This document shows positions 1-13,906 of a stretch of 13,906 nucleotides of DNA, in pieces. Each line of letters begins with the position of its first letter. Position 1 is the stretch's first letter. The position numbers were made by a program, and so were the translations under genes. This DNA comes from an uncultured Chthoniobacterales bacterium (GTDB lineage: Bacteria > Verrucomicrobiota > Verrucomicrobiae > Chthoniobacterales > UBA10450), in contig CATPCN010000683.1 in NCBI GenBank assembly GCA_955652855.1, positions 1 through 13,906 of the forward strand, read 5' to 3'. Under the pieces are notes generated by a model. That model was not told where the DNA came from. It was given only the letters and a program-made list of their open reading frames with translations, and did no database searches.

Positions 1-2
1 AG

Positions 3-1205
3 CTTCCAAGCCAGTGGGACTTTGCGATACAGGCATGCCTCGCCAGACTTCCGCAAGCCCGTCCGGGTTCCTGCGGGGAGTTTCTTCGTCTCCTCGAAGG
101 ACATGAGGGATCGACCCGGTTCTGGCTCCGGCGGTATGGGCGCCGCACTGCGTTCACAACGCTTATCCTTAGTGCGTGCGGAGCAACGGCGTATTTCGTG
201 CCTTTGCGATTTCCACATTCCCCATCCCCTCCGTTGCTTGCAATTGCAAGCTATAAGCGCGGAGAAGAATTTGTGCGGCGGCGAAACTCCGAAGGTATTC
301 AAAATGCCATCCAGGAGTTCCGGCAGGCTATAGCAATTGATTCTACTTACGCACAAGCCTGGGCCAGTTTGGCTGACGCTTACTGCGCCGCTGCGCATTA
401 CGACTTTATCGAACCCAAAGCCGCTCGCACCGAGGCAGAGAAGGCAGCACGAGAAGCCCTTCGATTAAATGGCCATCTCGCCAAGGCTCAGGGCGTTCTC
501 GCCTATACCGATTCAATCGATCTCAACAGATGGCGCCTGGCCGAGCCTTCTTTTCGCAAGGCGATCAACCTTGATCCCAATGAGCCTCTTCCCCACGCCT
601 GGTACGCTGCCTATCTGGGCCGCCTCGGGCGATTTGACGAGGCCATTGCTCAAGCTAAACGTGCCGTCGAAATTGAGCCCGGATTCTTTTATCTGAACCA
701 TCAGCTTGCCGCTGAATATTTTCGGGCAGGCCGCATTCAAGAATATTATCGTCAGTCATTGGATCTAGTTCGGTTGCAACCGTTTGAACCCAGCTCTCAC
801 CTGAGCCTGGCACGAGCTTGCGAATGGCTTGGCCATTACGAAGAGGCGCTGAATCACTGCGACGACGCAGCCAAGTACGGCAACCCACTCGCGACACTCT
901 GCTATCGTGGAACCATCGAGGCAGCCCGAGGCAACCGTACGAAGGCTTTTGAGATCGCTCGACAGGTGGAAGCGTATTGGAGCCAAAAGCCCTTCGAGGC
1001 CAGCCTACTCGTCAATCTATATGCGAAACTCGGGCAATTCGAGAAAGTGCTGGATGTTCTCGACGAAGCCTATAAACGTGGTGACGGGACCGTCCTTGCA
1101 TGTGCCACGAGTCTTTATCTCGAACCGATGAAATCGCTGCCACGGTACCAGGCTTATCTCCGAAAACTTGGTTTCGATTCGTCGACTCTCAATAAACAGC
1201 GCTAA
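3..1205 (+). CDS. Membrane Ser/Thr protein kinase with C-terminal TPR domain (5'-truncated by window edge)
   Basis: The frame is open from the first bases, so the gene starts outside the window and only its C-terminal ~400 residues are visible. Residues 1-33 of the visible part (SQWDFAIQACLA, then the Arg-Pro of QARPGS and EFLRLLEG) match the last helices of a bacterial Hanks-type kinase domain, where a conserved Arg precedes Pro. One hydrophobic segment follows at about 49-66 (TAFTTLILSACGATAYFV) after a basic stretch (WLRRYGRR), which puts the rest outside the cytoplasm. The remainder is helical TPR-like repeats, clearest around IQNAIQEFRQAIAID, WYAAYLGRLGRFDEAIAQA and HYEEALNHCDDAAKYG. Kinase-TM-TPR proteins are frequent in Acidobacteria and often accompany ECF sigma factors like the one at 4933. 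The stop overlaps the convergent YcaO gene by 4 bases. The kinase call rests on a short C-terminal piece; a DNA-binding regulator-TM-TPR protein is the alternative. A GTG at 198 would give only the TPR part and is unlikely to be the true start. Confidence 0.8.
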   Translation, partial: LPSQWDFAIQACLARLPQARPGSCGEFLRLLEGHEGSTRFWLRRYGRRTAFTTLILSACGATAYFVPLRFPHSPSPPLLAIASYKRGEEFVRRRNSEGIQNAIQEFRQAIAIDSTYAQAWASLADAYCAAAHYDFIEPKAARTEAEKAAREALRLNGHLAKAQGVLAYTDSIDLNRWRLAEPSFRKAINLDPNEPLPHAWYAAYLGRLGRFDEAIAQAKRAVEIEPGFFYLNHQLAAEYFRAGRIQEYYRQSLDLVRLQPFEPSSHLSLARACEWLGHYEEALNHCDDAAKYGNPLATLCYRGTIEAARGNRTKAFEIARQVEAYWSQKPFEASLLVNLYAKLGQFEKVLDVLDEAYKRGDGTVLACATSLYLEPMKSLPRYQAYLRKLGFDSSTLNKQR

Positions 1206-3289
1206 AGGATACAGGGATCTGGATTCAACGCCAATTCTTGCAAGGGGGCAGGCAGCCACCCGAGCTTTACGGGAACGTCGTACAGCCGTCCGGCCTCGAA
1301 CCGCGGCCCGTAGTGTCGCAAACCAGGCGCCACCACCCGTACCACCGGTATTCCGAGTTCCGGTCTGGTTAGATTGACGCTGTAAGCTTCAATGCCCGCA
1401 CGCCGCAACGCATTCAGGCAAAGCGTGAGCGCTACTTCTGTACTCACTGCCCGTACCTGGGGTGTGCTGGCTTGTCCGTCAGGCACCAGATAAGTATGCG
1501 TCTGGATCGAACTCTTGTTAAGCCATAGGCGTTGATCGAGATTATGGCCAGACCGCAACCCCCAATACCAAAACTGCGTTAGCTCCGCGATTGCGCGCTT
1601 CGCCGCGTTCACGCCGCACACGTCCGCCGCGCAGCCGAAGAGTAGGTTTTCTCCCTTATCGTCAGCCGATACCGCGGCGTAAACCGGAATCTCCAAATCG
1701 TGAGTCAGATCCAGCAATTCGAGTGTTCGATTGTTGGAAAGGAATATCTTCCGGGCGCTCTGCACGTCCTGGTCGTCCCATGTCTTCAACTCAACACCGG
1801 GGCGCCTAAGGCGGTTGTACCACCAGATTGCTAGTGCATCGCGCTCGATTAGCTCCAGCAGGCCCCTCAAAGTTGCGTCCACGAAGGTTTCTCCCGCAGC
1901 GCAGCCGTTCGTGTCCGCGTAGTTGTAAAACGGCTCTCCGCGAAACGGATACCACAGGTAAGCATAGCCGGCTGGAACATAGCACTCGCCCTCATTCAGC
2001 AAGGACTGGGCCTTTATCCAGGCCGTGGTTCGTTCGGGGTCGACTGCCTCCGGTACGCCATGCAAACTCCCTGGACCCGAATTCCAGTCCTCACGTGCCG
2101 AAAGTTGCGCTGCGCTAAAGAGCAAGAGTTTCGCTGGATGCAAGCCATCAAGCTCACCAATTCGCCCCCATACCAGCGGCTCATCGCCGACGAAAACGCA
2201 GGAATAGCGCTCGATCGCCTCCATTGTGCATCGCCGGACGGCCTCCTCCGCCGTTGGCCCTTTTCCATCCGCCGACAGTGGAGGCAGCGGGTCGCGGACG
2301 CCCGCCTTTGGAAGCGGCAGCAGTACCGCACTATTGGCCAGATAAACAAAACCAACCGGTCCGTCCGACTCCTGTAGTCTGTCGACGATCCCGGTTCGCG
2401 GACTCTGCAGGGACGCCCGAAAACTCATCGAGTCCTCGCTCGCTTCAGGACCGCATCGCGCGCAATTCCTTCGGGCCATAATTGGAAAGGCCTGGTTTGT
2501 GAGAGTGTGAAGATCAAAGGTCCAGAGATACCCCGGAGTCCAACCTGGCGGCTGCCCGGCTGCCCACAGTGTTGCGACGGTGGCGATTAATCCTGAAGCT
2601 ATCGTCATCGTGCTCGGTAGCCACGCAACCGAGGACGACGGGGCTCTCTCGGTTGGTGTGAGTCCGGTCACTGTCAGTTCCGGCCATCGGCGCAGCCTCA
2701 TCCAGTAGGCCAGGCATTCCCAGCACAACGGTCCTTCCCTCGACAAATACGGCCCGATCCAGATCTCGTTTCCCGATGGTTTGGCAAGTAAGACTGCCTT
2801 GCGGTTTGCTGCAAGCTCTGTCACCTCTGGCCGCAGGTAGTCGTCCGTGACGACGATAGACAAGTCCCCGTCCACTCGCGTTTCCACATCATTCGCGTTC
2901 AGCAGGGCCTCCAGAGCAGGGCCAAAATTCGGCAGCAGCGACACCACGGCAACTGGCTGAAGCGGACCGCGGGATCCAACAATGTCCCAAAATGCCGCTG
3001 AGTTGCGCGATATAGGTCGAGCGTGGGCTTGGACAATGACTCGTTCGCTGTACAATTCCTGGACTGCGGTTCCGATCGCAGCTCGATCGTAGGGTGGGCT
3101 GGCTTGTTCGGTTAGTGAACCCAACGTTTTCGGTTGCTGGAGAAGGCGAATGAGGTGTTGCAATAACGGGTCACCGACGAGGAATTGGCGGTGTTCAAGG
3201 AGCAGGCCAAGAGTTCCGCCCTGCGTAGCGAGCGGTACCAGGCCCGCGTTCCAGCAGAGAACCGTATTTTCGTCGAGTTGAACATTCAT
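1202..3289 (-). CDS. Fused E1-like/YcaO cyclodehydratase (TOMM-type RiPP maturation protein)
   Basis: A 695-aa protein of the fused cyclodehydratase kind, which uses ATP to turn Cys/Ser/Thr of a substrate peptide into azolines. The N-terminal ~90 residues look like a winged-helix peptide-recognition domain. The E1-like part carries a zinc tetrathiolate pair, CWEC (189-192) and CARC (276-279). The YcaO part has the ATP-binding sets TMEAIERYS (E357, E360), LLELIERDA (E479, E482) and AKRAIAELTQ (E569, Q572). The C-terminus is NPDPCIL, a weak version of the Pro-rich tail of many TOMM YcaOs. The frame extends upstream to 3376 and 3313, but bases beyond 3289 belong to a repeat found again upstream of 4175, where no YcaO exists; I therefore take the ATG at 3289. 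No start has a good Shine-Dalgarno. No dehydrogenase, TfuA, protease or transporter lies in the window, so the product may stay an azoline. The substrate is unknown; the divergent genes at 3463 and 4280 are the obvious candidates. Confidence 0.9.
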   Translation of the reverse strand: MNVQLDENTVLCWNAGLVPLATQGGTLGLLLEHRQFLVGDPLLQHLIRLLQQPKTLGSLTEQASPPYDRAAIGTAVQELYSERVIVQAHARPISRNSAAFWDIVGSRGPLQPVAVVSLLPNFGPALEALLNANDVETRVDGDLSIVVTDDYLRPEVTELAANRKAVLLAKPSGNEIWIGPYLSREGPLCWECLAYWMRLRRWPELTVTGLTPTERAPSSSVAWLPSTMTIASGLIATVATLWAAGQPPGWTPGYLWTFDLHTLTNQAFPIMARRNCARCGPEASEDSMSFRASLQSPRTGIVDRLQESDGPVGFVYLANSAVLLPLPKAGVRDPLPPLSADGKGPTAEEAVRRCTMEAIERYSCVFVGDEPLVWGRIGELDGLHPAKLLLFSAAQLSAREDWNSGPGSLHGVPEAVDPERTTAWIKAQSLLNEGECYVPAGYAYLWYPFRGEPFYNYADTNGCAAGETFVDATLRGLLELIERDALAIWWYNRLRRPGVELKTWDDQDVQSARKIFLSNNRTLELLDLTHDLEIPVYAAVSADDKGENLLFGCAADVCGVNAAKRAIAELTQFWYWGLRSGHNLDQRLWLNKSSIQTHTYLVPDGQASTPQVRAVSTEVALTLCLNALRRAGIEAYSVNLTRPELGIPVVRVVAPGLRHYGPRFEAGRLYDVPVKLGWLPAPLQELALNPDPCIL

Positions 3290-3355
3290 TAGTCTTGAAT
3301 CATAACTCGACATGAAATGGATTGGGAGATCGCGAACTGAGAAAAGGAGAATAAC

Positions 3356-3466
3356 ATGACGAACCTGAATTTGCATACGAACCGTAAGGTGCGCATTCGC
3401 CGCGCGGTCGATGAGGTATTTTCACCATGCCGTCTGATCAAAACGGAAGAGAGGACGAACTCGTGA
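3356..3466 (+). CDS. Possible 36-aa leader peptide translationally coupled to the first paralogue
   Basis: ATG preceded by AAAAGGAGA at 6-8 bases, a strong ribosome site. The frame runs 36 codons (begins MTNLNLHTNRK, ends KTEERTNS) and its TGA overlaps the GTG of the next gene as GTGA, a standard coupling arrangement. The same ribosome site and ATG recur at 4175 in unit 2, but there one-base differences keep the frame open into the paralogue. The amino acids match between units only over the first few codons, so a conserved peptide function is doubtful. It could be a coupling leader, a decayed N-terminal extension, or a tiny RiPP precursor; with only one Cys and few Ser/Thr, the last is weak. 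Confidence 0.35.
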   Translation: MTNLNLHTNRKVRIRRAVDEVFSPCRLIKTEERTNS

Positions 3467-4005
3467 GTATTCAAGATGAAACCCTAGAAGACGGTCGGTC
3501 CCACTTCCTCAACATCACCACTCATCCTAGTGGCACAGAGCTCTGGACGTACCCACCAGGTGCCAAACGTTTGGGTTTGGTCGTTGGGCTTCCTCAAACC
3601 TGCCGCAAATCTCGTCCGGGAGGATCCAGCAGATACGGTTCCCCTGAATGGTTCAAAGAGATCTCGTTCGTCGACACGGTCGACCTTGCAGTTCTGGAAC
3701 GCGCTCGAACGTGGATCCCTGACCGCTTAGGCAACGACCCGGGCTCCGTGGGGTGCGCTCACGTTTCGATGGGTGCAACGGTCACGAAGATTGTGCCGGG
3801 CGCTGGGAGTTTTACCGAACAGCCCTATCCGGCGGGCACCACCGCCGTATTCTATAGCTTGGCGATCGGGCCGGACCAGGACCCGACGAAACCTTTCGTC
3901 GCCTTGGCGATTTGGATATCGGACAAAGACTGGCCCGCTGATTTGCAAGAATTTATAGACGCTACGCGCCGCTCGAAGCTGGTTGTAAGCCCGTGTTCGC
4001 CTTAG
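3463..4005 (+). CDS. Unknown-family protein, paralogue 1 (no signal peptide, C-terminal Cys-Ser-Pro)
   Basis: A 180-aa protein I cannot place in a family. It shares about 55% identity with the next gene over the last ~155 residues, with blocks SRPGG-SRYGSPEW (50-63), VGC-HVS (96-102), TTAVFYSLA-GPDQD (126-140) and the ending CSP. Conserved cysteines are C47, C98 and C178. The GTG start follows GAGAGG at 8 bases and aligns with the equivalent GTG of paralogue 2; an in-frame ATG at 3427 would add 12 residues. Unlike paralogue 2 it lacks the twin-arginine segment and has only ~20 residues before the common region, so it probably stays in the cytoplasm. It is divergent from the YcaO cyclodehydratase, which makes it a candidate substrate or partner; Cys-Ser at the very C-terminus could in principle be heterocyclised. 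That role is inference. Confidence 0.8.
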   Translation: MSIQDETLEDGRSHFLNITTHPSGTELWTYPPGAKRLGLVVGLPQTCRKSRPGGSSRYGSPEWFKEISFVDTVDLAVLERARTWIPDRLGNDPGSVGCAHVSMGATVTKIVPGAGSFTEQPYPAGTTAVFYSLAIGPDQDPTKPFVALAIWISDKDWPADLQEFIDATRRSKLVVSPCSP

Positions 4006-4107
4006 CTCGGCTTGCGCGAGAGATCGAGTCGCGCGCACTCAGTTCCCCGTTTAGCCAGGCTTTTGCGACCACCCAGTCGCGCTTCACCGTCCGTTCGGAG
4101 AGACCGA
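4002..4107 (-). pseudogene. Remnant of the ECF sigma factor 3' end
   Basis: These 106 bases, read on the minus strand, match codons for the last ~34 residues of the sigma factor at 4933-5520, from GLSERTVKRDW through LNGELSARD. I count one substitution (tttt for tttc) and a 2-base length difference close to the stop that shifts the frame. There is no sigma-2 region, no start and no upstream part, so it cannot act as a sigma factor. It marks the right edge of duplication unit 1 and sits directly after the stop of paralogue 1, just as the intact sigma gene sits after paralogue 2. Confidence 0.88.
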
Positions 4108-4174
4108 ATTAGTCCGGAGCATAACGGACATGAAATGGACCAGGAGATCGCGAACCGAGAAAAAGGAGAGTAAC

Positions 4175-4279
4175 ATGACGAATCCGAATTCGCGTACGAA
4201 GCAGCGGTGTGAATTCTTCGCACCGTTGATGAGGTACTTTTACAGGGTCTTCAATAAAGACAGAAAGGAGGACGAGCGC
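4175..4279 (+). other. In-frame upstream leader of paralogue 2 (alternative long start)
   Basis: Equivalent of the 36-codon leader of unit 1. ATG 4175 has an independent strong Shine-Dalgarno, and the 35 codons read straight into the GTG at 4280 instead of stopping. If used, it buries the Tat signal about 58 residues inside the protein (signal at 58-73 of a 253-aa form), which would hinder export. The gene could therefore give a long cytoplasmic and a short exported form. The frame differs from unit 1 by single-base length differences on either side of a shared 'gatgaggta' block. Confidence 0.4.
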
Positions 4280-4936
4280 GTGAGCACTCAAGGTGAAAGC
4301 AAACCCGCGGAGATGCTGCGCGTGGCAAACCGGCGCAAAGGCATTGGCCGGCGCGGCGTTCTGGCCAGCGCCTTACCACTAATGGCGTTTGCTCGCAAGA
4401 CGCAGGCAAAGGCCCGCGGCCAGGTGGAGGTCATGAACGTCAAACCCGATCTTATTAACGGCACAAAGCTTCAGATGTACCCAGGGCCTCAATTGCTGGG
4501 GTATGTTATTGGGATACCTCAAGTCTGCAGGGGATCTCGCCCGGGAGGATTAAGCAGATACGGTTCCCCTGAATGGATTCAGGAGATCACCTTCATCGAC
4601 ACGAACGACGTTGCGATCGCGAACAGCGCTCGTCAGAAGCTCGGCCCCATCCGTGTAGGCAACATGGTGGGCACTGTCGGGTGTGGTCACGTTTCAAAGA
4701 ACGTAACGGTCACGAGGATTTTACAAAAAGGACCGAGTAGTTTTGACGAACAGCAATATCCACCAGAAACGACGGCTGTATTCTACAGCCTGGCGGTCGG
4801 GCCGGACCAGGACGCGAAGAAACCGTTCATCGCGTCGGAGATTTGGGTATCGGCCGCCGCGTGGGACGAGAAGTCGAAAGAGTTCATTAAGGCCAGAGAC
4901 CGCGCGGCGAATGCCGGAAGCAAGTGTTCGCCTTAG
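4280..4936 (+). CDS. Unknown-family protein, paralogue 2 (Tat-like signal, C-terminal Cys-Ser-Pro)
   Basis: A 218-aa protein paralogous to the preceding gene. The N-terminus has a twin-arginine motif and hydrophobic stretch (GRRGVLASALPLMAFA, 23-38) followed by ARKTQAKA, so Tat export is likely. The domain from about 60 to the end shares all conserved blocks with paralogue 1, with cysteines C83, C135 and C216 and the CSP ending. Two starts are credible. GTG at 4280 follows a perfect AAGGAGG at 8 bases and places the Arg pair normally. ATG at 4175, also with a strong AAAAAGGAGA, adds 35 residues in frame (MTNPNSRTKQ...). I chose the GTG because it aligns with the paralogue's start. The stop overlaps the convergent sigma stop by 4 bases. 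Family and function are unknown; it may be a YcaO substrate or a secreted effector. The extracytoplasmic Cys pair could form a disulfide. Confidence 0.82.
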   Translation: MSTQGESKPAEMLRVANRRKGIGRRGVLASALPLMAFARKTQAKARGQVEVMNVKPDLINGTKLQMYPGPQLLGYVIGIPQVCRGSRPGGLSRYGSPEWIQEITFIDTNDVAIANSARQKLGPIRVGNMVGTVGCGHVSKNVTVTRILQKGPSSFDEQQYPPETTAVFYSLAVGPDQDAKKPFIASEIWVSAAAWDEKSKEFIKARDRAANAGSKCSP

Positions 4937-5520
4937 CTCGGCTTGCGCGAGGTCGAGTCGCGCGCACTCAGTTCCCCGTTTAGCCAGGCTTTCGCGACCA
5001 CCCAGTCGCGCTTCACCGTCCGTTCGGAGAGACCGAGGAGGAGTCCGATCTCCTCCTCGGTCAACCCGCCAAAAAAACGCATCTCTACGATCTTCGCCAG
5101 GCGTGGGTCCTGGAGCGCCAACCGGTCCAGAGCTTGGTCCAGGCTCAGGAGAGAATCCAGTTTCTGTTCGCATACCACCAGTGCCTCGTCCAGCGTCATT
5201 TTTGGTTTTCCAGACCCCCTTTTCTCCGCTCTATTCTTTCGCGCATGATCGATCAGGATCCGCCGCATCACCGATGACGCCACGGCGAAAAAGTGTGCCC
5301 GGCATTTCCAGTCTGACCTGTATTGTCCCGCCAATCGTATATAGGTTTCATGCACAAGGGCCGTCGCTTGGAGAGTATGACCGGGACGCTCCCGGCGCAA
5401 GAAGGACCCGGCGAGCTTGCGCATTTCGTTGTAGATCAACGGAAACAGTTCATCTTCCGCCGCCACGTCGCCGGCGGACAACCTGTGTAAAAGAAGAGTG
5501 ATTTTCCCCGAATTCTCCAT
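4933..5520 (-). CDS. ECF-type RNA polymerase sigma factor (Sigma70_ECF, X6-like group)
   Basis: A 195-aa sigma factor with region 2 at about 10-95 (LFPLIYNEMRKLAG, RRERPGHTLQATALVHETY, AHFFAVASSVMRRILIDHAR) and region 4 at about 120-185 (DPRLAKIVEMRFFGG, EEEIGLLLGLSERTVKRDW). The RERPGHTLQ-TALVHE signature is typical of the large Sigma70_ECF group of Acidobacteria and Planctomycetes, whose members often work with Ser/Thr kinases rather than a classic anti-sigma. I start at ATG 5520, 8 bases after GGAGAG; the upstream TTG at 5526 would sit too close to that site. The stop overlaps the stop of paralogue 2. The copied tail at 4002-4107 shows that this gene was beside the paralogue family before the duplication. 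Its target promoters are unknown; the neighbouring YcaO locus and the kinase at the left edge are the natural partners to consider. Confidence 0.93.
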   Translation of the reverse strand: MENSGKITLLLHRLSAGDVAAEDELFPLIYNEMRKLAGSFLRRERPGHTLQATALVHETYIRLAGQYRSDWKCRAHFFAVASSVMRRILIDHARKNRAEKRGSGKPKMTLDEALVVCEQKLDSLLSLDQALDRLALQDPRLAKIVEMRFFGGLTEEEIGLLLGLSERTVKRDWVVAKAWLNGELSARDSTSRKPS

Positions 5521-5612
5521 CGTCAACGCTCTCCACAGTCTCCGATAATAACAGGATGGACCATCGCCTTCATTCTGCTGCTGCGCGACAAATGGGTCTA
5601 CGATACTGAACG

Positions 5613-5789
5613 ATGGATAAGCGTCTAAGGACCAGGCTTTTCGCGTGGTGGTACTTCGCCATCGCGGCCGGATTCGTTTTGCTGGCCATCAACCGCTGGC
5701 TGGTGGGCGAACCCAAGTGGCTGATCATCCTGCGGCTCGCGATAGCTCTTGGGTTCTCGCTGCTCGGCTTCGCGACCTGGCGAAAGTGA
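5613..5789 (+). CDS. Small two-helix membrane protein
   Basis: A 58-aa frame on the plus strand, starting MDKRLRTRLF and ending FATWRK. It has two hydrophobic segments, about 10-26 (FAWWYFAIAAGFVLLAI) and 38-55 (LIILRLAIALGFSLLGF), separated by NRWLVGEPKW. The basic start and basic end suggest both termini are cytoplasmic. It is divergent from the sigma gene and stops 2 bases before the end of the convergent VWFA gene, so it fits the gap exactly. No strong Shine-Dalgarno is visible before the ATG. I recognise no family. The clean hydrophobic pattern and exact fit between neighbours are the arguments that it is real. Confidence 0.6.
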   Translation: MDKRLRTRLFAWWYFAIAAGFVLLAINRWLVGEPKWLIILRLAIALGFSLLGFATWRK

Positions 5790-5791
5790 AT

Positions 5792-7414
5792 CTATTTCCT
5801 GGCAACCGGAATCCTTATCGGAATCTGCAGTGAGCCGACGTTGCCAGTGGAGCGATCCACGACAATGATGCGCAGGTGGCTTGCGTTCTCCACGGGCTCG
5901 ACGACCTTGGTGAGAATGAGACCTCGTTTCTGGATGTCGTCGTAGCGCTCTTTTTTCAGATTCATGCTCAGCGATTGAGTCTCGACGTTCAGTAGTTTCC
6001 CATCGGCCGCGACTTGCACCCAGCCCAGCTCGATGGCGCCTACCCAGCGATCATTCTGTTGTTGCAGGACGATGGTGGTCTGATCGATCTGCGCGACGAC
6101 TTGCAGGCTTCCAGGCTTCGGTTTGTCGACGGGGTCGGTGCGGGCATTGAGGCCGATGCCGGTTCCCTCCAGCGGGGTTTCAATCGCGTTCTTGATCTCG
6201 GCTTTGATTTCCTTTTCGCTCGGCGTCTGCGCGGTGAACGCGACAAAACCTTTGCGATAGCGAACATCCACTCCCGGCCTGTCCACCTTAACCTTGATGT
6301 CGTGAAATTTGCCGTCCCAATCGCCGCTATCCGGATAGAAGCCGAGCGTGTAGGTGACTCGAGCATCATTGACGGCGTTTCGGACGGCGCTCGTCAGATC
6401 GTTGGTATTGTAAAAAGCCTTTCCTCCGGTGCGTTCGGCGAGAATCTCCATGGTGTCCAAATTCGGCGGGAAGAAAATCTTGGGCGCCTGAACTCCCCCG
6501 CGCGCGGATGTACCGCGGACGGACGCGGACATGCGTGGATCGACCATCAGCCCGCGGGCGTCGACCGGATAGATCGCGATATTGGCGTCGTTCATCGCGC
6601 GCGCCACGCGGGTCGTCTCCTCGTTGAAGGTGCGGTGCTCCCGATTTGGATGGTCCAGCGAGAAATCCTCGGGCTCCAAGCCCAACGTGAACGGGAATCC
6701 ACCCGATACCCAGACCAGGTTCTTGCGTCCGGGCAGCGATGCCAGGTGATGGGCGATGGCCTCCATTGCGTCCAGTGTAAAGTTTGCTTTATTGACGTTG
6801 TAGAAATCCGATATCACCTGGTTGGAATTGGCGAGGAACTGGTCCAGATCGTCGTTTCCCGTGGGGTCGACAGGCGCGGGATCGGCAGCGTCCAACTCGC
6901 TGGAAATCTGGCCCCGATATTTCGCCAGGGCCTGGGTGAGATGCTCCGAATTGTTCGTGAAATCATGCAAGATGCGCAGATTGCCGCCAAGCAAATAGAG
7001 CGCGACTCGATCGTGCGGCTGTATTTCGCCGAGGAACTTGACGATCTGCTTGCGCGCATAGGCCTGATCCTGGAAGCGCGTGTTCAGGCCGTCAAAAAGG
7101 ATGACGGTGGTGCTGGTGGGCGTGTCCGCGCGTTGCAGCCGGTTAGAGAAAATGTTCGGGGGCAGGGCCGGCCAAGCCTTGGGATGGGTATCGATGGAGT
7201 CGACTGCAAAGACGGCAACTTTCTGCGGCTTGCCTTTGTCGAGGATGGTGAAGTCCTCTTTCTTGAGATCCGCAACCGGCTCGCCCTTTTTGTGGACCAC
7301 GACGTTTACTTGAACCAGTCGTGTAGTGACACGGATGGTCGGGTTATTTTGATCTTGAGCAAACAGGCTGATGGTGGGAAGCAGAAGGCAGGCGGTGATC
7401 AGGCAGCGATGCAT
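5792..7414 (-). CDS. Exported VWFA-related protein (acidobacterial family)
   Basis: A 540-aa protein with a signal peptide (MHRCLITACLLLPTISLFAQ, residues 1-20). The opening IRVTTRLVQVNVVVHKKG-PVADL-KEDFTILDKGKPQ is the hallmark of the acidobacterial VWFA-related family (TIGR03436-like). The A-domain core strand is TTVILFDGLNT (102-112); DGLNT replaces the DxSxS metal-site motif, which is common in this family, so metal-dependent ligand binding is uncertain. Later landmarks are GRKNLVWVSGGFPF (229-242), IAIYPVDARGL (279-289), TYTLGFYP (354-361) and DVRYRKGF. About 150 C-terminal residues beyond that have no assignment. The ATG follows AGGAGA at 6 bases. A double-hairpin repeat and an operator-like cluster lie just upstream, so it is probably transcribed separately from the regulator gene behind it. 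Function is unknown; a periplasmic or surface protein interaction role is the usual guess. Confidence 0.93.
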   Translation of the reverse strand: MHRCLITACLLLPTISLFAQDQNNPTIRVTTRLVQVNVVVHKKGEPVADLKKEDFTILDKGKPQKVAVFAVDSIDTHPKAWPALPPNIFSNRLQRADTPTSTTVILFDGLNTRFQDQAYARKQIVKFLGEIQPHDRVALYLLGGNLRILHDFTNNSEHLTQALAKYRGQISSELDAADPAPVDPTGNDDLDQFLANSNQVISDFYNVNKANFTLDAMEAIAHHLASLPGRKNLVWVSGGFPFTLGLEPEDFSLDHPNREHRTFNEETTRVARAMNDANIAIYPVDARGLMVDPRMSASVRGTSARGGVQAPKIFFPPNLDTMEILAERTGGKAFYNTNDLTSAVRNAVNDARVTYTLGFYPDSGDWDGKFHDIKVKVDRPGVDVRYRKGFVAFTAQTPSEKEIKAEIKNAIETPLEGTGIGLNARTDPVDKPKPGSLQVVAQIDQTTIVLQQQNDRWVGAIELGWVQVAADGKLLNVETQSLSMNLKKERYDDIQKRGLILTKVVEPVENASHLRIIVVDRSTGNVGSLQIPIRIPVARK

Positions 7415-7433: not shown

Positions 7434-7537
7434 GTGGCGCGGCCTCTCAGGCTGCCGCCTCGAGACCCGTCTCGATGCTTCGCGGAAAGAGCCTCGAGAC
7501 GAGTCTCGAGGCCGCAGACACGAGTGTTCGCGCCACG
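7434..7537. repeat. Double-hairpin palindromic repeat, copy A (MITE/REP-like)
   Basis: About 104 bases with terminal inverted ends GTGGCGCG/CGCGCCAC. Inside lie two hairpins: CTCGAGAC-cc-GTCTCGAtG (imperfect) and CCTCGAGAC-ga-GTCTCGAGG (perfect, 9-base arms, 2-base loop). It matches copy B at 10061-10168 with five substitutions and a 3-base gap, counted by eye. It carries no gene. It sits 20 bases upstream of the VWFA ATG and leaves the Shine-Dalgarno intact, so it would be in the 5' leader of that mRNA if transcription starts beyond it. Confidence 0.9.
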
Positions 7538-10060: not shown

Positions 10061-10168
10061 CGTGGCGCGGCCTCTCAGGCTGCCGCATCGAGACTCGTCT
10101 CGATGCTCCGTGGACGAAAGAGCCTCGAGACGAGTCTCGAGGCCGCAGACACGAGTGTCCGCGCCACG
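10061..10168. repeat. Double-hairpin palindromic repeat, copy B, inserted in the start of the second VWFA gene
   Basis: About 106-108 bases with terminal inverted ends GTGGCGCGG/CCGCGCCAC and two internal perfect hairpins with 2-base loops: CATCGAGAC-tc-GTCTCGATG and CCTCGAGAC-ga-GTCTCGAGG. It is the same element as copy A at 7434. On the left it abuts the codons of the VWFA signal peptide; on the right it stops about 7 bases from an ATG with a good ribosome site. It carries no gene. Size and structure fit a MITE or a REP-type pair mobilised by an enzyme encoded elsewhere. Confidence 0.92.
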
Positions 10169-12170: not shown

Positions 12171-13454
12171 TCAAAAATTCATGCCGGCAATGAACACCGG
12201 ATCGGCGTGCCCTTGGCGTATCGGAAAGGCAACCGCCAGCAAAAACGCTCCTTTTTGAAAAAACCCCAAACCGCTAGAGATCCCGATCCCGGCCGAGTGT
12301 CTGGGTTGCGGCGACTTTCCACTGTCCCACACCGCTCCGGAATCATAGAATACCCGCATAATATGGTACCCATAGGTGACGGACGCGTGGACCGCCCGGT
12401 TTCCACCAAGGGGATCGAGATCGTACTTATTCCAGCCGCGAAGGGTTGTGCTATTCCCTAAAACGAAGCGCTCAAATAGCGGCGCATGGCCTGAAATCAT
12501 GCCTGCGACGAGAGCGACTTCCACCGATTGATGGTCGTGCCGGAGATCGTAACGGACGTTGACCGCCTGCCGGGTGTAGGCGAGGTCCGTGCCGAGCATT
12601 TTGGTGGCCGCGCGCAGACTATAACCTGCGTCCAACTCCTGATTGGTGGCGTCCGAAGCCTCCCAACGCCGATGATAGCGCAGAGTATTTATCACAGCGT
12701 TGGCCGACTCCGATCGCGCGGCCGAAAGTTGAGGTTCCAATTTCTCGAAGCTCAAGCCGACGGTCAGCGTCAGCGGCTTGGCGAGAACAAAAGTGGCGCT
12801 GGGCTCAAAGTTCAAGCGGGAACGATAGGCGCCAGCGCCCAGGGAAGAAGGTGTATCCAAAGCAGTAAGAGTGGCGCGATCGTATTGTTCGTGAAAGGCG
12901 TCGAATTCGAAGCCAAGCTTGACGCGATTGTTGGCGAGCGACAGACGCTGGTATTTCAGACTGACGCCGGAAAACCGCTCGGCCAGCGTGTCGCCATCGG
13001 TGACGGCGCCGACCGTGATGGCATTCGCGCCGATGGTGGCGGTGGCCTCGCCGACGGCGGTCCAGCCTTGGGTTGAGTTATAGGCGAACTTCGGAATGGA
13101 AAGGTCGAAATTGTTACCGCCCTTGTCGACGGCCAGCAGCACCTTCACACATTCGGGAGCGCCGCCGCGCGCCACTTTAAAAGTCACGTCGTGCGCGCGC
13201 AGCTCGTTACGGATTCGGCCGGTCAGGCGTATCACGGCGTCGGTGCTGAGCTTGGACCCGATTAGCCGCTGCATCTCCTGGATGGCGGAAGTGCTGAGGC
13301 GGTAGTGACGCTCGCCGGTGAAGCTGATGCTCTCGATGGTGTAGCGCGAATTGACGTTGAGGTCGGTGGAGACGGCTTCGTCGGCGGTGGCAGTGTCGGA
13401 GGGTTGGCTGAGGAGGCCGGCGGCCGCGACCAAAGCTAAGAGAACGAGCTTCAT
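12171..13454 (-). CDS. Omp85/BamA-TamA-like outer-membrane beta-barrel protein
   Basis: A 427-aa protein with a signal peptide (MKLVLLALVAAAGLLSQ), one POTRA-like segment (about 37-110, YTIESISFTGERHYRLS...) and a C-terminal barrel. The barrel signature FERFVLGNSTTLRGWNKYDLDPLGGN (327-352, LRGW at 338-341), VFYDSGAVWD near 368 and the C-terminal Phe (AGMNF) are typical of the surface-antigen/Omp85 family. A single POTRA makes it smaller than BamA (five) or TamA (three), so it is unlikely to be the essential BamA. The ATG follows AGGAG at 5-6 bases. It is the first gene of the minus-strand operon and precedes DUF4390 and the kinase. Possible roles are export of a partner or insertion of surface proteins. 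The substrate is unknown. Confidence 0.88.
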   Translation of the reverse strand: MKLVLLALVAAAGLLSQPSDTATADEAVSTDLNVNSRYTIESISFTGERHYRLSTSAIQEMQRLIGSKLSTDAVIRLTGRIRNELRAHDVTFKVARGGAPECVKVLLAVDKGGNNFDLSIPKFAYNSTQGWTAVGEATATIGANAITVGAVTDGDTLAERFSGVSLKYQRLSLANNRVKLGFEFDAFHEQYDRATLTALDTPSSLGAGAYRSRLNFEPSATFVLAKPLTLTVGLSFEKLEPQLSAARSESANAVINTLRYHRRWEASDATNQELDAGYSLRAATKMLGTDLAYTRQAVNVRYDLRHDHQSVEVALVAGMISGHAPLFERFVLGNSTTLRGWNKYDLDPLGGNRAVHASVTYGYHIMRVFYDSGAVWDSGKSPQPRHSAGIGISSGLGFFQKGAFLLAVAFPIRQGHADPVFIAGMNF

Positions 13455-13906
13455 GGGGACTCCTGGTGCAATCGCTCTTCCAATCGTAACTGATTGGAGG
13501 GGCGGGGTTTGTTTCTGGGGGTTGTGTGCTGGGGGCGCACAGGTGTGACGGGTGTTGAGCCGGAATGGTAAAACGAACCCACATGCGTCCAGGAGGTGCT
13601 GGGTGGTGGGGATTGGTTCGCAGGTACGTGGGGATGCAACTGCTTGATTCTTAGGGTCGCTCTGGTGGAGGTGGGTTTCAATTTCATGATTTGAAAAAAC
13701 GAAGCCATCGTTGGCCGGGCGTTTGGCTGTCTCGATGGCTGAGAGCTTGAGGCTTCGTTATTGGCGGTATCGGACGTTGAAATGTTGACACTTGTGGCTT
13801 CCCTTCTGTCATTGGTATAGCACGTGAGAATTGAGCCGAAGGGTGGCTTTCGGGGGAAGTTGTTGAGGGGATACGTTAAGATAATTTCTGATGATCGGTG
13901 ACTCCT
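13455..13906. other. Region upstream of the operon, no convincing gene
   Basis: About 450 bases. Open frames here (for example minus-strand 13451-13708) are low-complexity, rich in Pro, Thr and His, and overlap the start of the outer-membrane gene in another frame, so I do not call them. The operon promoter should lie here on the minus strand, but I see no clear -35/-10 or sigma-54 site. The only notable structure is the pair of competing inverted repeats at 13700-13757. Confidence 0.5.
13700..13757. other. Competing inverted repeats (possible RNA structure)
   Basis: CGAAGCC (13700-13706) can pair with GGCTTCG (13751-13757), while AGCCATCG (13703-13710) can pair with CGATGGCT (13733-13740). 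The two left arms overlap at 13703-13706, so the stems exclude each other unless strands swap. A short GGCC/TTTGGC motif sits in the inner loop. On the minus strand the structure lies about 250 bases upstream of the outer-membrane gene and could be in its leader. No poly-U run follows, so it is not a standard terminator. Confidence 0.3.

Follow-up and report, generated by a model that had tools for sequence, protein, structure and literature searches.

A rare protein family beside a fused YcaO cyclodehydratase keeps a cysteine third from its C-terminus and may serve as its substrate

The cyclodehydratase gene and its duplicated neighbor

The stretch of DNA analyzed here (hereafter, the window) comprises 13,906 nucleotides from an uncultured Chthoniobacterales bacterium. 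It carries the gene for a fused cyclodehydratase and, divergent from it, two tandem copies of a partner family, followed by a sigma factor gene. The features to which we refer are the following:

1202..3313, minus strand: fused cyclodehydratase (RRE/E1/YcaO) of the LynD/TruD type, about 703 amino acids
3289..4107, plus strand: duplication unit 1 (5' edge of the YcaO gene, copy 1, partial 3' end of the sigma gene), from DNA alignment and repeats D1-D3
3356..3466, plus strand: ORF of 36 amino acids with a Shine-Dalgarno-like site; its stop codon (TGA) and the GTG start of copy 1 overlap
3463..4005, plus strand: copy 1 of the partner family (P0002), 180 amino acids from GTG, or 192 from an alternative ATG at 3427
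3601..3651, plus strand: conserved loop of copy 1, CRKSRPGGSSRYGSPEW
3994..3996, plus strand: C-terminal Cys codon of copy 1, third from the end
4006..4107, plus strand: partial copy of the 3' end of the sigma gene downstream of copy 1; nearly the same sequence recurs at 4937-5036 (repeat D3)
4108..5036, plus strand: duplication unit 2 (region upstream of copy 2, copy 2 itself, authentic 3' end of the sigma gene), from DNA alignment and repeats
4175..4936, plus strand: copy 2 of the partner family (P0001), 253 amino acids
4349..4393, plus strand: Tat-like signal of copy 2 (RR, then GVLASALPLMAFA), from a hydropathy scan; common to the relative P0004
4526..4576, plus strand: conserved loop of copy 2, CRGSRPGGLSRYGSPEW
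4925..4927, plus strand: C-terminal Cys codon of copy 2, third from the end
4933..5526, minus strand: ECF-type sigma factor (TIGR02999); the duplication took in the 3' end of its gene, and its role in the YcaO system is putative

The open reading frame of the enzyme extends over 1202-3376 on the minus strand, and its start probably lies at 3313 or 3289. The product consists of an N-terminal RRE-like region, an E1-like region with four zinc-type cysteines and a YcaO domain. Both PF02624 (YcaO; 239.2 bits, cut-off 25.7) and TIGR03882 (E1-like/leader-binding region; 70.5 bits, cut-off 36.9) scored above their cut-offs, and TIGR03604 (SagD-type domain) fell narrowly below its own (211 bits against 219.25) with positions 1-373 of 377 matched. 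A profile of 12 sequences (the window enzyme and 11 relatives) aligned with LynD 6-773 in one stretch, with TruD nearly end to end and with MusD in two stretches. The motifs GKG...EAxERYS, NGxAAG...ELxERD...WWYNR and CWxCL...CPxC were kept in this alignment; the window enzyme reads GKG...EAIERYS, a block with conserved glutamates, and NGCAAG...ELIERD...WWYNR, and its E1-like part keeps the four cysteines (CWxCL, CxxC). We take the GKG/NGCAAG-type motifs to be the nucleotide site and these cysteines to be the zinc site. The domain scores and the near full-length alignment with LynD and TruD bear out the preliminary description of this DNA, which had reported a complete E1-YcaO cyclodehydratase divergent from two paralogues.

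The two copies of the partner gene are diverged (51-52% identical proteins). For copy 2 the longest ORF begins at 4130, but a Shine-Dalgarno-like AAGGAGA stands 5' of the ATG at 4175. In the final 158 codons of their alignment, the copies agree at 69% of nucleotides and at 58% of synonymous sites (42% of synonymous sites different), and the Ka of 0.34 against a Ks of 0.62 (Nei-Gojobori, 158 codons) makes both copies look to be under protein constraint. Directly 3' of both stop codons, repeat D3 (4016-4107 vs 4945-5036) is 97% identical over 92 nt; the near-identity spans 3990-4107 and 4921-5036 and sets in at the codons TGT-TCG-CCT-TAG (Cys-Ser-Pro-stop). Because the flank is so much more alike than the synonymous sites of the copies, it was presumably homogenized recently, and gene conversion would be the simplest route to a near-identical flank of otherwise old duplicates. 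The region upstream of copy 1 aligns to its counterpart in copy 2 with two single-base gaps, which give rise to the 36-aa ORF; by DNA alignment, this ORF is a frame-shifted counterpart of the N-terminal region of copy 2.

Several other features of the window were recorded. At its left edge, 3-1205 (plus strand) encodes the C-terminal part of a TPR protein, which is cut by the window edge and converges on the YcaO gene. No Pfam match was found in the first 66 residues of this protein, and its first residues seem to resemble the last part of a Ser/Thr kinase domain; the gene is of interest because locus L003, an NHLP-Burk locus discussed below, has a kinase/cyclase fusion. Beside the sigma gene, 5613-5789 (plus strand) encodes a putative membrane protein of 58 amino acids (high GC3, 0.81) with no credible Pfam or NCBIfam match. 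Two window proteins carry a TIGR03436 acidobact_VWFA domain above the cut-off, which gives the window an acidobacterial character. A repeat some 105 bp long, made of two 53-nt blocks (92% and 98% identical), is dispersed at 7434-7537 and 10062-10168 and might represent an interspersed element of the genome. Twelve window proteins were searched against Pfam and 10 of these also against NCBIfam (excluding the ORF 13451-13906); no dehydrogenase, TfuA, peptidase or ABC exporter was found among them.

The partner family and its cysteines

A word-based search of about 5.8 billion proteins with a profile of both copies (E up to 10) returned five rows: the two window proteins, the full-length relatives P0003 (196 aa) and P0004 (228 aa), with 40-45% identity to the window copies, and P0005, a fragment of 106 aa listed with no contig that is 95% identical to the N-terminal part of copy 2. 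All statements on the family therefore rest on only four full-length proteins. None of the four had a credible match in Pfam, NCBIfam, PHROGs or PADLOC (the best, weak matches, each in a single member, were PF01320 with E 0.13 and phrog_23708 with E 0.39), in agreement with the preliminary description, whose author had not recognized the family.

Three invariant columns hold 12 of the 14 cysteines in the four proteins. One of them is the third residue from the C-terminus in every member (CSP, CSP, CPG and CPA), and the last 17 aligned columns are otherwise invariant only in one Ala and one Arg; the tail has this single Cys and few Ser or Thr. The C-terminal Cys-Ser-Pro and two internal cysteines previously read in both paralogues were confirmed. 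It had also been asked whether relatives keep Cys-Ser at the end. The Cys at position -3 is kept in all four proteins, but neither the Ser nor the final residue is conserved in P0003 and P0004. A further point raised earlier, that Cys-Ser-Pro lies at the edge of the near-identical 3' flank and could owe its conservation to recombination, is right for the window taken alone, where the near-identity begins in these very codons. Since the relatives end in CPG and CPA, the Ser-Pro common to the window copies may be a product of flank homogenization. The -3 Cys of P0003 and P0004 cannot be explained by conversion within the window, because these proteins are encoded on other contigs and share 40-45% identity with the window copies.

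Conservation is densest in an internal loop, C-R-x-S-R-P-x-G-x3-Y-G-S-P-E-W, in which 12 of the 17 columns are invariant in the four proteins, compared with 46 of 159 for the domain. The two blocks named in the preliminary description, SRPGG-SRYGSPEW and TTAVFYSLA-GPDQD, are both present in the window copies; across all four members, the second shrinks to a YSL core.

Structure models of copy 2 (mean pLDDT 52.5, pTM 0.47) and P0003 (mean pLDDT 63.1, pTM 0.67) are weak; they point to a beta-rich domain, then a helix and a tail of low confidence. In the P0003 model the last 8 residues and also residues 54-69 have pLDDT below 50. No usable fold match was obtained in the PDB (both models) or in a viral library (P0003 model), which with models of this quality does not imply a new fold. 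By sequence and hydropathy scan, two of the four members (P0001 and P0004) have twin arginines followed by a hydrophobic stretch; in P0004 it reads SRR-ALLAGLLPIAAFA, and in both it looks Tat-like. No signal-like stretch was seen in copy 1 and P0003 (starts of P0003 and P0004 as called by their sources).

Among the best 120 of 370 YcaO homologues, which were examined for matching contigs, P0009 (60%) has the same listed source and contig size as P0003 (ena; 22,167 bases), and P0012 (58%) the same as P0004 (jgi; 52,963 bases). Judged by equal size and source, the members of each pair probably lie on one contig. The co-occurrence of homologues with YcaO genes, put forward earlier as a check, is thus found for both relatives with a contig, to the extent that equal contig size and source identify one contig. 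In an enzyme tree of 34 rows (the window, 30 of the 31 rows P0006-P0036 and three outgroup rows; P0011, the window's own fragment, was omitted), the window enzyme groups with P0006, P0007, P0008, P0009, P0010, P0012 and P0021 (eight enzymes, SH-aLRT 88). A partner is known for three of these eight, window included, and for the other five none was detected by the word-based search. Some partnerless enzymes are encoded on short contigs (P0010, 2,248 bases with little beyond the gene; P0006, 7,305; P0007, 9,186) and others on long ones (P0008, 100,681 bases; P0021, 150,872 bases, gene truncated). Three changes on the 34-row tree are required to explain the partner label, and its clustering was no better than that of shuffled labels (500 of 500). 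Three explanations are conceivable: gain and loss of the partner, divergence past detection, or other substrates of the enzyme. We conclude that the partner family is real, linked to YcaO, without known relatives in the databases searched and very rare at the sensitivity of a word-based search.

Possible substrate role and competing explanations

We favor, by some distance short of certainty, the view that the family is a substrate of the YcaO enzyme in some form. Its most specific version, in which the members are protein-sized TOMM precursors of a new sort, modified by the neighboring enzyme, and the -3 Cys is the modified residue, is our leading proposal and a tentative one, to which we would give slightly less than an even chance. 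According to this proposal, the paralogues would be the substrates of the adjacent fused cyclodehydratase, and the folded domain of about 155 residues would dock on the enzyme as a leader of unusual size. The short flexible C-terminal tail would then enter the YcaO active site, where ATP-dependent cyclodehydration would convert the -3 Cys to a thiazoline (-18 Da). No oxidation step would be expected to follow, given that no dehydrogenase was found among the scanned window proteins. For copy 2 and P0004, the modified protein could subsequently be exported in its folded state via Tat and trimmed by signal peptidase, with no need for a dedicated RiPP transporter. The enzyme architecture, the conserved cysteines and the tandem duplication, on which this scheme builds, are established here. 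In its favor count the complete LynD/TruD-like enzyme, the divergent adjacency in the window, the probable pairing of both relatives with YcaO homologues, the invariant -3 Cys, the low pLDDT of the last 8 residues in the P0003 model, the constraint on both copies, the negative scan for a dehydrogenase, TfuA, peptidase or transporter, and the NHLP-Burk and MprE7/MprC precedents. Against it count the small number of members, the five partnerless enzymes (two of them on long contigs), the unclustered partner label, the position of Cys-Ser-Pro beside a homogenized flank, a tail with one Cys and few Ser or Thr, the lack of a signal-like stretch in copy 1 and P0003, and the internal loop as a competing site.

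The preliminary description had offered, as one of two options, that the enzyme could modify whole proteins at a C-terminal Cys-Ser. This idea is supported in part: the association with YcaO and the -3 Cys speak for it, and the drift of Cys-Ser in the relatives and the five partnerless enzymes speak against it. A strong form, in which the thiazoline sits at the C-terminus of whole folded proteins and the Tat-exported protein itself is the product, not a released peptide, appears unlikely to us.

The family could also be the substrate and yet be modified elsewhere, namely in the internal loop, so that the whole protein would end up with a heterocycle within its chain or with another YcaO modification. 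YcaO enzymes that act inside whole proteins are known (thioglycine in McrA), the dense invariant columns of the loop include a Cys and Gly-Ser, and residues 54-69 of the P0003 model are of low confidence. On the other hand, low pLDDT from four sequences is weak evidence, the conservation of the loop may equally be that of a structural element or an active site, and E1/RRE-fused enzymes of this type are described, in the accounts cited, for cores that follow a leader (PMC12455567; PMC4603692). We hold modification of the loop to be rather improbable. Far less credible still is that the 36-aa ORF is a classical precursor, with copy 1 translated by coupling behind it. Its Shine-Dalgarno-like site, the overlapping TGA/GTG and a codon score of 0.13 per codon, within the range of its neighbors, would fit such a role, but it contains only one Cys and is frame-shifted in a region whose counterpart is intact in copy 2 and P0005. 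The earlier remark that no normal short precursor is visible accordingly needs qualification: a short ORF with a ribosome-binding-like site does exist, and it is not an obvious TOMM precursor.

Readings in which the family is no substrate have to be weighed against the same data. Its members might be helper, immunity or target proteins, with the true short precursor outside the window or encoded elsewhere; just 1.2 kb separates the YcaO gene from the left edge of the window, the five partnerless enzymes make another substrate possible, and distant precursors are described for other TOMM systems (heterocycloanthracin, PMC4603692). A scan of 1-6000 for short ORFs with Shine-Dalgarno-like sites gave no precursor-like candidate beyond the 36-aa ORF, and one would not expect a helper to keep an invariant Cys while the rest of its tail drifts. 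We regard this possibility as unlikely. Finally, the proteins could be exported for reasons unconnected with the enzyme, the three cysteines forming a disulfide or a metal site and the adjacency to YcaO reflecting chance or common regulation. The Tat-like signal in two of the four members, the three invariant cysteines and the beta-rich domain of the weak models would agree with this; against it stand the two relatives, both probably encoded on the same contig as a close YcaO homologue, and the lone -3 Cys, for which a low-confidence tail would be an odd place if its role were structural. We consider such an unconnected function quite improbable.

Comparison with known systems

The nearest kind of system is NHLP-Burk (BMA_0021-BMA_0022, TIGR03795), in which, as described in PMC2887384, tandem diverged paralogues lie by a fused cyclodehydratase and one of them ends in Cys or Cys-Cys. 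In locus L003 of a Paraburkholderia plasmid, the order is a kinase/cyclase fusion, two precursors (118 and 120 aa), of which the second ends in CC, and the cyclodehydratase. Copies 1 and 2 of the window likewise form a tandem diverged pair beside a fused cyclodehydratase. Unlike the L003 precursors, however, the window family is larger (180-253 aa), its Cys stands at -3 in all four members instead of being the last residue, two members have a Tat-like signal and the window genes are divergent from the enzyme. A search of NCBIfam, including TIGR03795 and TIGR03793, gave no family at E up to 5 for any of the four members, and hhalign of the window family against the L003 precursor pair returned a probability of 0.1. 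With an arrangement that is partly the same and no sequence relation, the window family may work like NHLP-Burk without being a member of it.

Related plasmid loci were noted in the course of this comparison. On a Variovorax plasmid (L004), an unannotated ORF at 963-2747 (plus strand) upstream of the cyclodehydratase appears by eye to consist of two fused NHLP-Burk-like units and ends in FTC. Plasmids of Methylovirgula (L005, 3533-7263) and Bradyrhizobium (L006, 3845-7580) have a fused cyclodehydratase directly followed by a SagB dehydrogenase; in these two loci no neighbor is named as a precursor, hypothetical proteins occur, and not all plasmid genes are covered by the gene table.

With regard to the proposed docking, a close parallel is MprE7, whose folded leader docks on the RRE-bearing YcaO cyclodehydratase MprC and whose Cys lies downstream of the fold; in the account cited, this NHLP is an 81-residue leader that forms a three-helix bundle with an L(X)4L motif, and MprC works with the oxidase MprD (PMC12455567). 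The window family is predicted to share the folded, protein-like leader, the RRE-bearing cyclodehydratase and the Cys beyond the fold, but it is predicted to be beta-rich and is about twice as long, and no oxidase was found among the window proteins scanned. The enzyme itself has the same architecture and motifs as LynD, TruD and MusD by profile alignment. Cyanobactin clusters carry PatA/PatG-type proteases (PMC4603692), whereas no protease of this type was found among the window proteins scanned. As to export, MelA1/MelH is described as a case in which a secreted protein of more than 30 kDa is modified at its extreme C-terminus by a RiPP enzyme (PMC12636315), and Sec signals are, according to the cited text, frequent in MNIO precursors (bufferins) and rare among bacterial RiPPs (PMC12452194). 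An exported protein modified by a RiPP enzyme is what these systems would have in common with the window family, for which it is a proposal only; they use an iron oxidase instead of a YcaO enzyme and Sec or lipoprotein signals, and we claim no homology.

If the proposed role is true, an unrelated folded family would join the structured leaders or substrates accepted by YcaO cyclodehydratases, YcaO chemistry would be linked to Tat export, and protein-sized precursors in tandem with a terminal Cys would seem to have had more than one origin. The prediction is readily checkable, as it concerns one enzyme, one protein and one mass change, with three cysteines to distinguish.
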